From Sphingobacterium shayense (GTDB taxonomy: Bacteria; Bacteroidota; Bacteroidia; Sphingobacteriales; Sphingobacteriaceae), in NCBI RefSeq assembly GCF_013179575.1, contig NZ_JABMCQ010000001.1, positions 1 to 64,000 of the forward strand: a stretch of 64,000 nt of DNA, in the 5' to 3' direction. Under the pieces are notes generated by a model that did no database searches, had not been told where the DNA came from, and saw only the letters and a program-made list of their open reading frames with translations. The translations under genes and the position numbers were made by a program. Of this stretch, positions 28,838 through 58,692 are shown piece by piece (position 1 is the first letter of the stretch; each line of letters begins with the position of its first letter).

Positions 28838-29245
28838 ATGGCAGCGGAAACCGAAAAACTTCGTATTGATAAATATTTATGGTCCATTCGTCTATTTAAA
28901 ACACGCAGTTTAGCGACAGACGCTTGTAGGGCTGGAAGGATTAAACTTAATGGGCAGAATATTAAGCCGTCTTATTTGGTGAAAATTGGAGAGGTTTATA
29001 GCGTTCAAAAAGGTATTGAACGAAAGATAATAAAAGTAATTGGACTGCTCGAACGTCGAGTTGATGCTAAAACAGCGGTCCAGTTTTACGAAGATCAAAC
29101 ACCTGAGGAAGAAACATACGCCTTTAAATCTGTGTTCCACGCGCCTGTACTCAAAAGAGATCGGGGGACAGGTAGGCCAACCAAAAAGGACAGGCGAGAA
29201 ATCGACGATCTCACTTCAGACTGGCTCGGTGAAGACCAAGGGTAG
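28838..29245 (+). CDS. S4-domain RNA-binding protein, HslR type
   Basis: A 135-residue RNA-binding protein. The S4 domain occupies about 6-75: KLRIDKYLWSIRLFKTRSLATDACRAGRIKLNGQNIKPSYLVKIGEVYSV. A basic tail follows (KRDRGTGRPTKKDRREIDDL) and it matches Hsp15/HslR proteins, which bind free 50S subunits carrying stalled peptidyl-tRNA. The start is ATG at 28838; a TTG at 28832 in the same frame overlaps the promoter box and is unlikely. The gene is transcribed alone and ends 7 nt before the convergent mtgA, with no terminator visible in between. Confidence 0.88.
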   Translation: MAAETEKLRIDKYLWSIRLFKTRSLATDACRAGRIKLNGQNIKPSYLVKIGEVYSVQKGIERKIIKVIGLLERRVDAKTAVQFYEDQTPEEETYAFKSVFHAPVLKRDRGTGRPTKKDRREIDDLTSDWLGEDQG

Positions 29246-34151: not shown

Positions 34152-34859
34152 ATGAAATCAATTTTTCGTTTTAAGCAGTTTCAGGTTGACCAAAGCAATT
34201 GTGCTATGAAAATCAATACCGATGGTGTTTTACTTGGTGGTATGATTGAACCGTATAGTGCGGAACGTATTCTAGACATAGGAACCGGTACGGGGGTAAT
34301 TGCAATGATGCTTGCCCAAAAGTTCCCAGGGGCGGTTGTCCATGGTGTGGAGATAGATACTGCGGCGAGCAGGCAAGCGGGGTTGAACTTTGAAAACTCA
34401 ATCTTTAATAATAGATTGGAGGTTATTTCCGGTTCTTTTCAAGATATGCGTCCCGATTCGGATTATGATTTAATCGTATCAAATCCTCCTTTTTATACGA
34501 ATTCCTTACATACCCCCGATGCTAGAAAAACGCAAGCAAAGCATGCTGACAGCATTTTCTTTGAGTCCTTAATTGATTTTGTTGATCAGAATTTGTCTTC
34601 CAACGGGAGGTTTTATTGTGTTTTGCCAACTTTAACGGCGCGATACGTTACTGAAGTGTTGCTGCCAAAATCAAAATTGTATTACCGCGGAGCGACTAAT
34701 ATCTCGTCGTTTCATGGAGCCCCAAGTATACGTACCGTGATCCAGCTTGGTAAGGAAGAATCCTCTTTTGAGAATGGTGAACTGGTTATCTATGCATCCA
34801 AAGGTGTTTACACGGTTGAATATAGAGAGTTACTGAAACCGTATTTTTTAAATTTTTAG
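34152..34859 (+). CDS. trmN6: tRNA1(Val) adenine-37 N6-methyltransferase type protein
   Basis: A 235-residue SAM-dependent methyltransferase of the YfiC/TrmN6 group, which methylates A37 of tRNA1-Val. The N-terminal segment FRFKQFQVDQSNCAMKINTDGVLLGG is typical of this group. SAM motif I is ILDIGTGTGVIAMMLAQKFPGAVVHGVEID and the catalytic loop is VSNPPFYTNSLHTPD (NPPF/Y, the signature for N6-adenine methylation). The tail FHGAPSIRTVIQLGKEE is also seen in homologues. It is two bases from the phosphoesterase gene downstream, with which it forms a short operon. Related enzymes with other targets cannot be fully excluded. Confidence 0.9.
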   Translation: MKSIFRFKQFQVDQSNCAMKINTDGVLLGGMIEPYSAERILDIGTGTGVIAMMLAQKFPGAVVHGVEIDTAASRQAGLNFENSIFNNRLEVISGSFQDMRPDSDYDLIVSNPPFYTNSLHTPDARKTQAKHADSIFFESLIDFVDQNLSSNGRFYCVLPTLTARYVTEVLLPKSKLYYRGATNISSFHGAPSIRTVIQLGKEESSFENGELVIYASKGVYTVEYRELLKPYFLNF

Positions 34860-54811: not shown

Positions 54812-54855
54812 AAACGGCAAAAAACAACTAATTTAATAGCTGTTTTTTGCCGTTT
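54812..54855. terminator. Terminator shared by rdgB and the OstA-like gene, one arm inside the latter's coding end
   Basis: AAACGGCAAAAAACA and TGTTTTTTGCCGTTT form a perfect 15-bp stem around a 14-nt loop, followed by TTC. The stop codon of the minus-strand OstA-like gene is at 54828-54830, so the right arm codes for its residues NGKKQ. Confidence 0.8.
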
Positions 54856-57263
54856 TTCGATGTATCAGATTGTTGCTTTATTTTTATTGGAGGTTTGGCT
54901 ATGATTGTTTTTCTTGTTAATGTATCGGAGTTTAGCAATTCTGCTGAACTATGATCCGACGTAGTGTCTTTGATAGATGACTTTTGTGATTGATCAGGAA
55001 CGTCGTCGTTAAGGTCTATCTCTTGCGGTTCAGGAGTGTTTTTTGTATTGTCTGAGGCTTCCTGCATAGGGCTACGGACGATCTCTCGTTTTCGATTGAT
55101 CATGTCTTCTTTTGACTTTGGTCTATCTTGAGGTCGCCAAGTAAATCCGGGTAGGACCTCGTTTTCTTGTGTCACGAGTCTAAATGGATATACCCGTTGA
55201 TCAACTTTACGGATTGTTATATAGTCAATTATTTTTTTGTTTTCCATCTTTATCTTGATACGGGCTCCGCGATCGTGAAACATCTCTGTGATGGTATTCG
55301 TCGAATCATTGGTTGAAAAAATTAGATTTTCAGCATTTCCGTCAACATATAAGCGATCGATTGCGTTATTGGCAAAGAACGCTGTAATTTTCCTACCTTT
55401 TAATTGGTTAAATTTCAATGTGTCTAGCACCGCGTTTACCATGAATGCATTGCCAACCAACAGTGCATTGTCTAACCTCTGGTTTAATGCTTGCATGTAA
55501 ATGGTGTCCGATGAAATCTGTGACCCTTCTGCCCAGATCATCGGTCGACCCATAAATCGGAACATGGAATCCGCCATGCCATAATATACCGAATCCGCAA
55601 CGGCTTGGAGATCTGACTTGAACATTCGAACGTTATAATACGCCTTGACAATTCTTGTGCGTGCTGTGTCGAGATAGGCTGGATTACTGGTGTCCGGAGT
55701 GACTGTATCTGTCGTCTGTGCAGTAATAAGGGCGTTGTTGATTATGCTGTCAGCCTGTGCCGCGTGTGGGATTATCGCTTTTCTTCTGATGATGGAATCT
55801 TGTTTCATCGCCGAACTTATTGCGATATCTGTGTCTTTTGCGACATGAACTGGTGGAGTGGTTTCTGTTTTAGTGATACTCTTATTTTTTTCGTTGTGAG
55901 TCGTATCTGATTGAGGTTTAGATATAACGTTTGAAAGGTTGGCATCTAGATGAACACTATCAGTTCGTAACGTATACGCCGTATTTTTTGTTGTTGAATC
56001 TGTTGCTAGGCTATCATTCTGAAAATCTGTATAATCGTCCTCGTTTCCATAATCAATTTCGTCATCGATTTCAATGGCTCCGCCATTTCTGTCTAAATTG
56101 AAATTGAGTGCCACATAGTCTTTTAGCATGATCATCTGTGAATACAGGGTGTCCGCGGTCATATATACCGAATCTACTGTGCTTGCCTCTTTTTTCACGC
56201 TGGACACAGCTAAAGTGGAACTTTTATTACTCACGCTGTCTTGCGAAATTTCTATTGGAGGGGGGGGATTAGCTTCGACCGTCTTGTTTTCCGGTAAACG
56301 CAAACTTGCCGTGGTATCGATAATGGTTTTATTGGAGTCAGTTCCTGGCGAGTCATTTTTAACGACAGTAATAATTAATGGTTTGTCGGTCATTGTAATG
56401 GACTCGCTTGATTGATCATATAATCCGTAGCCTCCATAAGCGTAGAATTTGTCGATGGTGTCTACAAAAACAACATTATTATAGGCCTTACCAATCCCTG
56501 TAGCTCGATCGTAATATAAACTATCTCCCTTAAGGAATTTAGAGCCGCTGTTATACAGGTTATTTAATGAAAATTTTGCGATACCATTCTCTGTTTGATA
56601 ATTTCCTTTTTCTGTGTATAGGTTCTCGCCTGCGTTTCCTTTGATGTCTGTCGGGCCGAAAAAATAGGTAGTTCGCTGTGTAGAATTATAACGCATGGTA
56701 TCTGTATAGATTTTTACGTCTGGAGAGCGAACAACAACTTTATTTCTAAAATACGCATCTTGAGAGCGCTCGAAGTAATATCCGTTTTTTGAAGTGATTG
56801 TGTCAGTGCCGGTGATTATACGTCCCCCACCGGTATAGGTGCCAATCTGATCACGCATTTTGTATACCAAATGGTTGGTGGTTAGCGTCGATCCTTTATC
56901 CACCATTCGTACACTATTGGTTAAGGTTGCGATTTGTGGCGCTGCATTATAATGCAATTTATCCGAATAAATAACAGTTCCTGAAGGTTGTGTAATTACA
57001 ACATTTCCAAAGGCTTCGAAAAACTGTCTTTTTAACTCGTCTTCATACATGTAACTGCTGTCTGCGGAAAGCGTGCTTCCTTTATGCTCGAAAACACCAT
57101 TATAGTATATCGAACGCCCCGTTTTGGAGTTGATAATTACGTTGCGGGATGAAATAAGCGTGAGACGATCCTCTGTTGTGCCGGGACGTTGAGAGCCAGG
57201 GTTCTGAGCGTAGGCGCAGAAAATACTGAATACGCAGAGGATCGAAAGTATATAATGATTCAC
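54828..57263 (-). CDS. OstA-like protein (LptA/LptD N-terminal-like repeats)
   Basis: A large secreted protein (811 residues) with a signal peptide (MNHYILSILCVFSIFCAYA). Residues about 30-300 are a series of OstA repeats: LTLISSRNVIINSKTGRSIYYNG, HYNAAPQIATLTNSV, SKNGYYFERSQDAYFRNKV, GNYQTENGIAKF, a beta-jellyroll pattern like LptA and the N-terminus of LptD, which bind lipopolysaccharide in transit. The middle (about 310-530) is a Ser/Thr/Lys/Asp-rich linker; then another repeat set (MADSMFRFMGRPMIW, GNAFMVNAVLD) and a proline-rich tail. The start codon is GTG, 5 nt after a TATTTTTG promoter box. It is probably the LPS-bridge protein of this phylum. Confidence 0.85.
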   Translation of the reverse strand: MNHYILSILCVFSIFCAYAQNPGSQRPGTTEDRLTLISSRNVIINSKTGRSIYYNGVFEHKGSTLSADSSYMYEDELKRQFFEAFGNVVITQPSGTVIYSDKLHYNAAPQIATLTNSVRMVDKGSTLTTNHLVYKMRDQIGTYTGGGRIITGTDTITSKNGYYFERSQDAYFRNKVVVRSPDVKIYTDTMRYNSTQRTTYFFGPTDIKGNAGENLYTEKGNYQTENGIAKFSLNNLYNSGSKFLKGDSLYYDRATGIGKAYNNVVFVDTIDKFYAYGGYGLYDQSSESITMTDKPLIITVVKNDSPGTDSNKTIIDTTASLRLPENKTVEANPPPPIEISQDSVSNKSSTLAVSSVKKEASTVDSVYMTADTLYSQMIMLKDYVALNFNLDRNGGAIEIDDEIDYGNEDDYTDFQNDSLATDSTTKNTAYTLRTDSVHLDANLSNVISKPQSDTTHNEKNKSITKTETTPPVHVAKDTDIAISSAMKQDSIIRRKAIIPHAAQADSIINNALITAQTTDTVTPDTSNPAYLDTARTRIVKAYYNVRMFKSDLQAVADSVYYGMADSMFRFMGRPMIWAEGSQISSDTIYMQALNQRLDNALLVGNAFMVNAVLDTLKFNQLKGRKITAFFANNAIDRLYVDGNAENLIFSTNDSTNTITEMFHDRGARIKIKMENKKIIDYITIRKVDQRVYPFRLVTQENEVLPGFTWRPQDRPKSKEDMINRKREIVRSPMQEASDNTKNTPEPQEIDLNDDVPDQSQKSSIKDTTSDHSSAELLNSDTLTRKTIIAKPPIKIKQQSDTSKNGKKQLLN

Positions 57264-57360
57264 GATGGCAAAAATAACTAATTAATTAGCAAATTTTTGT
57301 TAAAGGATAAATTTTCATAAGAAATACTTTTGGTCAAATTTAAAATTTTAACTTTGGTAT
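57264..57360. promoter_or_regulatory. Divergent promoters of ostA-like and tilS, both with leaderless layout
   Basis: The minus strand has TATTTTTG (57269-57276) followed by CCATC and GTG at 57263. The plus strand has TAACTTTG (57349-57356) followed by GTAT and ATG at 57361. In both directions the box leaves only 4-5 nt before the start codon, so each mRNA would begin on or next to it. Confidence 0.6.
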
Positions 57361-58692
57361 ATGCACATCATGACCCGGTTTCGAAAATATCTACAGAACC
57401 CACTTTCAGTGGGGCTTAAAGATAAGATTTTACTTGCGGTCAGTGGTGGCCGTGACTCGATGCTCATGGCCCACCTTTTCTTGGATGCAGGATATAATTG
57501 TATAATTCTGCATTGTAATTTCGGTCTACGAGGACTAGATTCTGACTTAGATGAGCAGTTGGTTGTTGATTTTGCTAAAAAGAGGGGAGTGAGCTATGTG
57601 ATTGAGCATTTTCAGACGAAAAAATATGCTGCCGAGCGTTGCCTTTCTATACAGATGGCTGCTCGTGAGTTACGATATAAGTGGTTTGAGCAAAAGCGTC
57701 AGGAGCTACACGGGGAATGGATTGCTGTGGCCCAGCACCGTAACGATCATATTGAAACAGCATTTTTAAACTTATGTCGTGGGACAGGACTTGTTGGTTT
57801 GCAAGGGATATTGCCGCGACGAGGACATATCATTCGACCCTTACTGTTTGTTGGGTCCCAAGAGATTACTGAAGAAGTCAATCGTCTCGAAATTCCTTTC
57901 CGAGACGATCAATCCAATTTCTCTACTAAGTACTTGCGAAATAAGCTTAGGCTAGACATTCTTCCAAAATTTAAAGAGCTTACTCCGGAATTTGAGAACA
58001 TTATGGTGGAGAATATGGATAGATTTCACCAGTCTGTTCAGCTTTTAGAATATTTCGTTAAACCAATTCGCGTAAAGCTCTTTCAGAGGGATGGCGAGTT
58101 ATACACGATCAACAGAGAAGCTTTACGTGACTATATTGACAACACGCCGCTGATGTATGAGCTATTTCGTGAATTTGACTTCGCTCCTGAAGTGTTAAAG
58201 GATTTACAAGTTAATTTCGATGGAATTGCAGGAAAGGTTTTCCAATCGAGAAAATACGAACTTTTGCTCGATAGAGAGTATTTGAGGATGCGTCCCAGGC
58301 AGAGTGAGCTTGTCGAAAGCCCAACGATATATTTGAATGAAAACACGAATCAAGTGTCTTTCTCCGGTGAGCGTTTTTTCGTAACCACGAGTGAAGATCG
58401 ACATATTCTATCTGACAAGTCTATCGCCCAAATTGATTATGATCTTCTTATATTTCCACTGCAGTTACGGTTATGGCAATTTGGGGACGTATTTTATCCC
58501 CTAGGAATGACAGGAAAGAAGAAAGTAAGCGATTTTTTTGTTCAGCAAAAGTTAGATTTGTTTCAGAAGAAACGTGTTCCGATATTAGTAAATGGAAATG
58601 GTGATATAATTTGGATAGCCAAATATCGGTTAGATAATCGATATCGCATTACCGAACGCACAAGAAAAGTATATATTATAGAATCCAATTAG
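57361..58692 (+). CDS. tilS: tRNA(Ile)-lysidine synthetase
   Basis: Changes C34 of tRNA-Ile (CAU anticodon) to lysidine, allowing AUA reading. The 443-residue protein shows the PP-loop LLAVSGGRDSMLMAHLF near 27-43, the nucleophile region VAQHRNDHIETAFLNLCRGTGLVGLQG, the RPLLFV...ITEEVNRLEIPFRDDQSNFS, where the DxSN motif continues, and a C-terminal ferredoxin-like domain with LWQFGDVFYPLGMTGKKKVSDFFVQQK. All TilS motifs are present. The ATG at 57361 lies directly after a promoter box; a second ATG at 57370 (MTRFRKYL) is an alternative. Confidence 0.95.
   Translation: MHIMTRFRKYLQNPLSVGLKDKILLAVSGGRDSMLMAHLFLDAGYNCIILHCNFGLRGLDSDLDEQLVVDFAKKRGVSYVIEHFQTKKYAAERCLSIQMAARELRYKWFEQKRQELHGEWIAVAQHRNDHIETAFLNLCRGTGLVGLQGILPRRGHIIRPLLFVGSQEITEEVNRLEIPFRDDQSNFSTKYLRNKLRLDILPKFKELTPEFENIMVENMDRFHQSVQLLEYFVKPIRVKLFQRDGELYTINREALRDYIDNTPLMYELFREFDFAPEVLKDLQVNFDGIAGKVFQSRKYELLLDREYLRMRPRQSELVESPTIYLNENTNQVSFSGERFFVTTSEDRHILSDKSIAQIDYDLLIFPLQLRLWQFGDVFYPLGMTGKKKVSDFFVQQKLDLFQKKRVPILVNGNGDIIWIAKYRLDNRYRITERTRKVYIIESN

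Follow-up and report, generated by a model that had tools for sequence, protein, structure and literature searches.

Two divergent genes whose promoter boxes almost touch their start codons raise the question of where the messenger RNAs (mRNAs) begin, and of how a ribosome would start on a transcript that leaves it little or no leader. We examined such a pair, tilS on the plus strand and an ostA-like gene on the minus strand, whose starts lie at 57263-57361 of a window of 64,000 nucleotides (nt) from Sphingobacterium shayense (NZ_JABMCQ010000001.1, positions 1 to 64,000). Comparison with relatives makes it very probable that promoters of the sigma-ABfr type end 4 nt (tilS) and 5 nt (ostA-like) before the start codons, that both mRNAs begin at the start codon or 1 nt before it, because the box ends 4-5 nt upstream, and that a 5'-terminal AUG or GUG is translated. 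On this account, RNA polymerase would initiate at the start codon of either gene, or 1 nt upstream, and the ribosome would initiate on the 5'-terminal AUG of tilS or GUG of the ostA-like gene with no leader. The GUG would be selected, probably to fix the amount of ostA-like protein at a low value.

The tilS box, TAACTTTG (57349-57356, plus strand), matches TAnnTTTG exactly and is followed by the 4-nt spacer GTAT (57357-57360), which places the predicted transcription start at the A of the ATG. The coding sequence (57361-58692, plus strand; 443 amino acids; predicted leaderless) carries ATP_bind_3 (PF01171, E 3e-41) and TilS_C (PF11734, E 3e-9), the PP-loop ATPase and C-terminal domains that assign it to TilS. 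An in-frame ATG at 57370 was considered as the conserved start and rejected, because it is 57361 that lines up with the starts in relatives. On the other strand, the box TATTTTTG (57276-57269, minus strand) is again an exact match and is followed by the 5-nt spacer CCATC (57268-57264), with transcription predicted to start at the G of the GTG or 1 nt before it. The ostA-like coding sequence (54828-57263, minus strand; 811 amino acids; predicted leaderless) carries OstA_2 (PF13100, E 7e-35) and PF03968 (E 5e-8), domains of the LptA/LptC type that fit the OstA_2/LptD_N assignment; its GTG start is kept in relatives and, judged by eye, is directly followed by a signal peptide. In the shared intergenic stretch between the boxes (57277-57348), TTAACA (57298-57303, minus strand) precedes the ostA-like box by 21 nt, and AAAATTTG, a box with one mismatch, begins 21 nt upstream of the first base of the ostA-like box.

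At both genes the box is thus an exact copy of the TAnnTTTG -7 element of the sigma-ABfr (-33/-7) promoter. In Flavobacterium johnsoniae, probable promoters have a box-to-start distance of 4 or 5 nt with the box G at -5, in a set of 241 of 434 candidates that were retained for having this 4-5 nt spacing (PMC6847099), and in Flavobacterium psychrophilum the same box lies at -12 to -5 (PMC9723704). Both species belong to another family of the phylum than Sphingobacterium. Applied to the window, the F. johnsoniae rule would leave tilS a leader of 0 nt and the ostA-like gene one of 0 or 1 nt.

Box-to-start distances were also counted across many genes. A simple gene caller run on 1.483 Mb (the genome of the window and a second genome, G027) yielded 1,114 predicted genes, and 309 boxes were followed by a start in frame. 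We found 9, 24 and 13 boxes at in-frame distances of 3, 4 and 5 nt (46 of 309), against 31 at distances 6 to 14 together and an out-of-frame control, per frame, of 1, 4.5 and 3 (8.5 in total). Because this in-frame peak exceeds the control, leaderless genes appear to form a real, if small, class; tilS and the ostA-like gene account for four of its 46 members, once per genome. Box-adjacent starts amount to about 4 per 100 genes before background subtraction, which is near the 3.7-5.5% published elsewhere in the phylum (5.5% leaderless genes in F. psychrophilum, PMC9723704; about 3.7% of 5' untranslated regions (UTRs) shorter than 10 nt in Bacteroides thetaiotaomicron, PMC7366714). A pyrimidine directly precedes the start in 7 of 9 cases at 3 nt, in 22 of 24 at 4 nt and in 10 of 13 at 5 nt, versus 7 of 13 at 18 nt, within a second, broad hump of distances around 16-22 nt. 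A whole-genome count of box plus 4 nt plus GTG made without gene context showed no excess (42 versus 44 in reversed controls), so only in-frame, gene-aware counts were used. Two further genes of the window have box-adjacent ATG starts, one for an S4-domain protein (28838-29245, plus strand; 3 nt) and one for a small-domain methyltransferase (34152-34859, plus strand; 5 nt).

Within the genus, the layout was followed in two sets that overlap partly and whose counts are not additive: 36 genomes (that of the window and 35 others), where the ostA-like box was searched as the exact octamer TATTTTTG, and 67 named loci from a search with ostA-like proteins of the genus (63 with Sphingobacterium in the title, and Sphingobacterium sp. 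JB170 closest at 94%), where the box was any TAnnTTTG. A search of genome contigs with tilS alone found no relatives. Among the 36 genomes, the tilS box stands 4 nt before the ATG in 31, 5 nt in three and 3 nt in one, with none in L026, while the ostA-like box stands 5 nt (33 genomes) or 4 nt (three) before a start that is GTG in 34 and ATG in two. The named loci give 5 nt in 60, 4 nt in six and 6 nt in one for the ostA-like gene (67 of 67 within 4-6 nt), with GTG in 65, ATG in two, the octamer TATTTTTG in 66 and TACTTTTG in one; for tilS they give 4 nt in 57, 3 nt in six, 5 nt in two and no box in two (L146, L165). The spacers themselves are diverse, with 20 distinct sequences in the 31 four-nt tilS rows and 16 in the 33 five-nt ostA-like rows. 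Promoter-to-start spacing is therefore kept while the spacer letters vary, which is the pattern expected of leaderless mRNAs. These spacers end in T or C in 28 of the 31 and all 33 rows, respectively, and so do those of 55 of 65 boxed tilS loci and 66 of 67 ostA-like loci of the named set, as expected for a pyrimidine-purine start point.

Some loci add detail to this picture. In L026 (genome G017) tilS lacks an adjacent box, and about 110 nt upstream there is a TAACTTTG with an ATG 5 nt after it, an arrangement resembling a promoter that has come apart from its gene. In L004, L005, L006, L009 and L010 the two starts are some 370-445 nt apart with both promoters kept, and a hairpin-like ACAACTTTTTTCTAAAAAAAGTTGT lies just upstream of the tilS promoter. 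Of the 67 named loci, 42 have TTAACA exactly 21 nt ahead of the ostA-like box and 37 have TTTGC 12 nt ahead of it; these may be a -35-like or regulator element.

Beyond Sphingobacterium, we sampled 51 ostA-like loci from 21 genera, out of 129 genomes of other genera with a match, and found TAnnTTTG 4-6 nt before the start in 48 (4 nt in 29, 5 nt in 17, 6 nt in two); the misses are both g34 loci and a g36 locus with TAATTTTA plus 4 nt plus GTG. The boxed start is GTG in 42 of the 48 and ATG in six (genera g28 and g46), so that GTG with an exact box occurs in 17 of the 21 genera besides Sphingobacterium, with seven different octamers between genera. For tilS, 19 of 22 loci from 20 genera have a box 3-6 nt before the ATG (misses L303, L306 and L308), and the boxed or near-boxed ostA-like start is the divergent neighbour of tilS in 21 of the 22 (in L288 the matches lie on different contigs). 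Outside the family, one of the first four starts is preceded by a box at 5-7 nt in three of 20 ostA-like loci from 20 further families, the start being ATG each time (L250, L255, L261), and two more families have a box 5 nt (L044) and 8 nt (L048) before ATG; a 4-nt tilS box occurs in 3 of 20 loci of other families (L038, L044 with GTG, and L048). Because the arrangement is rare in other families, it appears to be mainly a trait of Sphingobacteriaceae. The preliminary description had proposed that both mRNAs begin at the start codon and that conserved 5' leaders in relatives would speak against this. Its spacings and start codons are those of the sequence, and its proposal draws support from the comparison with relatives and from the F. 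johnsoniae rule. The comparison of distances that it had suggested gave the 3-5 nt peak and a conserved layout, with no conserved leaders and the box 3-6 nt from the start in nearly all loci.

As a contrast, nine tRNA-synthetase groups were read in six Sphingobacterium genomes (L340-L393); beyond the Pfam domain, we take the individual identities (Ser-, Lys-, Gln-, Glu- and Gly-type) as presumed. For the seryl-type gene, box and start are 21-29 nt apart in five of the six genomes and one genome has no box; for the lysyl-type gene they are 25-31 nt apart in all six. The box lies 4-5 nt before the ATG of the Gln- and Glu-type genes in five of six genomes each and at 5-6 nt in the Gly-type gene in five of six, and the other six of the nine groups have leaders or lack a box within 60 nt. 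From these distances, whether a gene is box-adjacent or leadered looks gene-specific and inherited. The His- and Phe-type genes of G027 also have box-adjacent ATG starts. A suspected excess of tRNA synthetases in the box-adjacent class is no more than a lead, as two of the three groups were in the list that prompted the idea.

Why one gene of the pair should start with GTG is a question of its own. Start codons of the 46 box-adjacent genes are ATG in 40, GTG in four and TTG in two, which is in line with the mycobacterial RTG rule (ATG and GTG but no TTG at leaderless starts), though the numbers are small; the four GTG starts belong to the two ostA-like genes, a ubiX-like gene and truA, the last two with an ATG three or four codons downstream. 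In the ostA-like gene, A/G third positions in 12 conserved K/E/Q columns carry the minor letter at 14-48% (65 of the 67 rows; two were left out because the fixed-length reading meets a stop in them), versus ATG in 2 of 67 at the start, and those two ATG starts represent one change on a tree of the 65 rows. Because third positions are well mixed while the start is almost invariant, the GTG does not behave as if drifting, and we infer that it is under selection. For truA, 36 genomes matched and 30 loci were fetched (L310-L339); box plus 4 nt plus GTG occurs in 20 of these genus loci, nine start instead with an ATG 9 nt from the box, and the remaining locus lacks a box. The 20 include the genome of the window (G000:C326:18762-18776). 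An in-frame ATG lies at most five codons downstream of the GTG in four of them, directly before it in two (the genome of the window and L327) and five codons upstream in two, and 12 have no nearby ATG. The preliminary description had called a leaderless GTG gene unusual. This holds in that such starts are a minority (4 of 46, two of them ostA-like), but the ostA-like GTG is conserved through most of the family's genera that were read, the layout recurs in truA, and in Mycobacterium smegmatis a 5'-terminal GTG works about as well as ATG (PMC4633059).

Several points weigh against transcripts that begin at these start codons and are translated from there. A -33 TTTG at fixed distance showed no clear enrichment in the 46 box-adjacent or in 134 leadered boxes, with the -33 element being weak in F. 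johnsoniae too (PMC6847099). If the G stood strictly at -5, the 5-nt spacing would lengthen the ostA-like mRNA by one nucleotide. In the other genera of the family, the spacer ends in G or A in 20 of 48 ostA-like and 11 of 19 tilS loci, so the pyrimidine-purine signature is lost there. A further in-frame start lies upstream of the ostA-like GTG in 25 of the 67 named loci (ATG in five, GTG in 15, TTG in five) and in 14 of the 48 loci of other genera, and truA is ambiguous in the genome of the window, where an ATG overlaps. Leaderless GTG in Escherichia coli gives less than 10% of ATG (quoted in PMC4633059), so that the function of a leaderless GTG in Bacteroidota is assumed. Our literature search found no transcription start or N-terminal data for any Sphingobacteriaceae.

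The alternative that survives best is that the boxes are real and the main transcripts nevertheless begin further upstream, with ordinary leaders on the dominant mRNAs and only minor initiation next to the start codon. It could draw on the frequent TTAACA and on AAAATTTG upstream of the ostA-like box, as well as on the low leaderless shares reported for F. psychrophilum and B. thetaiotaomicron. However, box, spacing and start codon are kept in L004, L005, L010, L025 and L028, where 369-1398 nt separate the two starts, and three of these (L004, L005 and L010) have a different sequence upstream of the ostA-like box and still retain its layout. TTAACA is missing in 25 of the 67 named loci, and leadered genes show no such fixed spacing, which makes this alternative unlikely.

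A second alternative, that the GTG is internal to an ostA-like frame translated from upstream and that the "box" is coding sequence, would make use of the upstream in-frame starts just mentioned (ATG in L162, L166, L167, L196 and L197; GTG 15 codons upstream in 15 loci of one clade) and of L244, with an ATG directly before the GTG. In the window, however, no ATG, GTG or TTG lies between the upstream in-frame stop and the GTG at 57263, and the other 42 named loci likewise have no such upstream start. Those box letters that fall on third codon positions never change, whereas the residue before V varies freely; the signal-peptide-like stretch, by eye, begins right at the GTG with a basic residue within a few codons, and ATG occupies exactly the GTG position in L160, L168, g28 and g46. 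The upstream starts were accordingly judged less likely than 57263, and we consider translation through the box highly improbable. That the spacing is mere inheritance at a slow junction, with nothing holding the box near the start, is scarcely credible even though many named loci come from near-identical clade members, given the diverse spacers, the seven octamers among genera, the well-mixed third positions of the ostA-like gene and tilS proteins that share 45-55% identity with that of the window within the genus and 34-47% in other genera.

Initiation at a 5'-terminal AUG or GUG has precedents, as leaderless mRNAs, including ones with GUG, are known elsewhere. RTG genes of mycobacteria (M. 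tuberculosis and M. smegmatis) are alike in that transcripts start with ATG or GTG and need no start signal other than this 5'-terminal codon; they differ in making up 26% of genes with a primary transcription start, as established by RNA sequencing, ribosome profiling and reporters (PMC3898074, PMC4633059), whereas here the share is about 4%, from sequence only and with the Bacteroidota -7 box. The box-adjacent synthetase genes recall a tendency in M. tuberculosis, where 7 of 14 tRNA-synthetase genes with a primary start are leaderless (PMC3898074). In Deinococcus-Thermus, -10 regions adjacent to open reading frames likewise place a promoter element directly before the gene and yield leaderless mRNA (PMC12340547), but in another phylum and, by the title of that paper, as a common pattern, whereas it is a minority here. 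Closest are the leaderless minorities of Bacteroidota, with the same box and a similar share (PMC6847099, PMC9723704, PMC7366714); in F. johnsoniae 13% of leaders are at most 10 nt long (PMC6847099). These studies differ in that leaderless genes are a small fraction with few of them named, and their available portions hold no family-wide conserved gene or GUG case. By their titles and abstract openings, the papers listed by our searches, which leave aside subscription papers and preprints, name no conserved leaderless GUG genes in Sphingobacteriaceae, and no family-wide conserved leaderless GUG case in Bacteroidota was found among them. Out of 37 Bacteroidetes/Chlorobi genomes, a survey that looked for Pribnow-like signals reported only one with leaderless genes (PMC3160421), a low count that the different box of the phylum may explain. 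Gene finders may also misplace such GTG starts.

Ribosomes of Bacteroidota initiate without Shine-Dalgarno sequences (PMC6847099, PMC10783764). The conserved AUG/GUG pair in one intergenic region, together with natural ATG variants, makes leaderless initiation and the cost of GUG directly testable. We also put forward, as a tentative and rather doubtful extension, that Sphingobacteriaceae keep a standing leaderless RUG class in which the transcription-initiating base is the first base of the start codon, with G kept over ATG (in about 18 genera for the ostA-like gene, and partly in truA) because leaderless GUG would set a low translation that depends on the levels of initiation factors and 70S ribosomes. 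If this were true, lipopolysaccharide transport and tRNA charging and modification (TilS, TruA and the Gln-, Glu-, Gly-, His- and Phe-type synthetases) would be tied to the state of the non-Shine-Dalgarno ribosomes in these bacteria.

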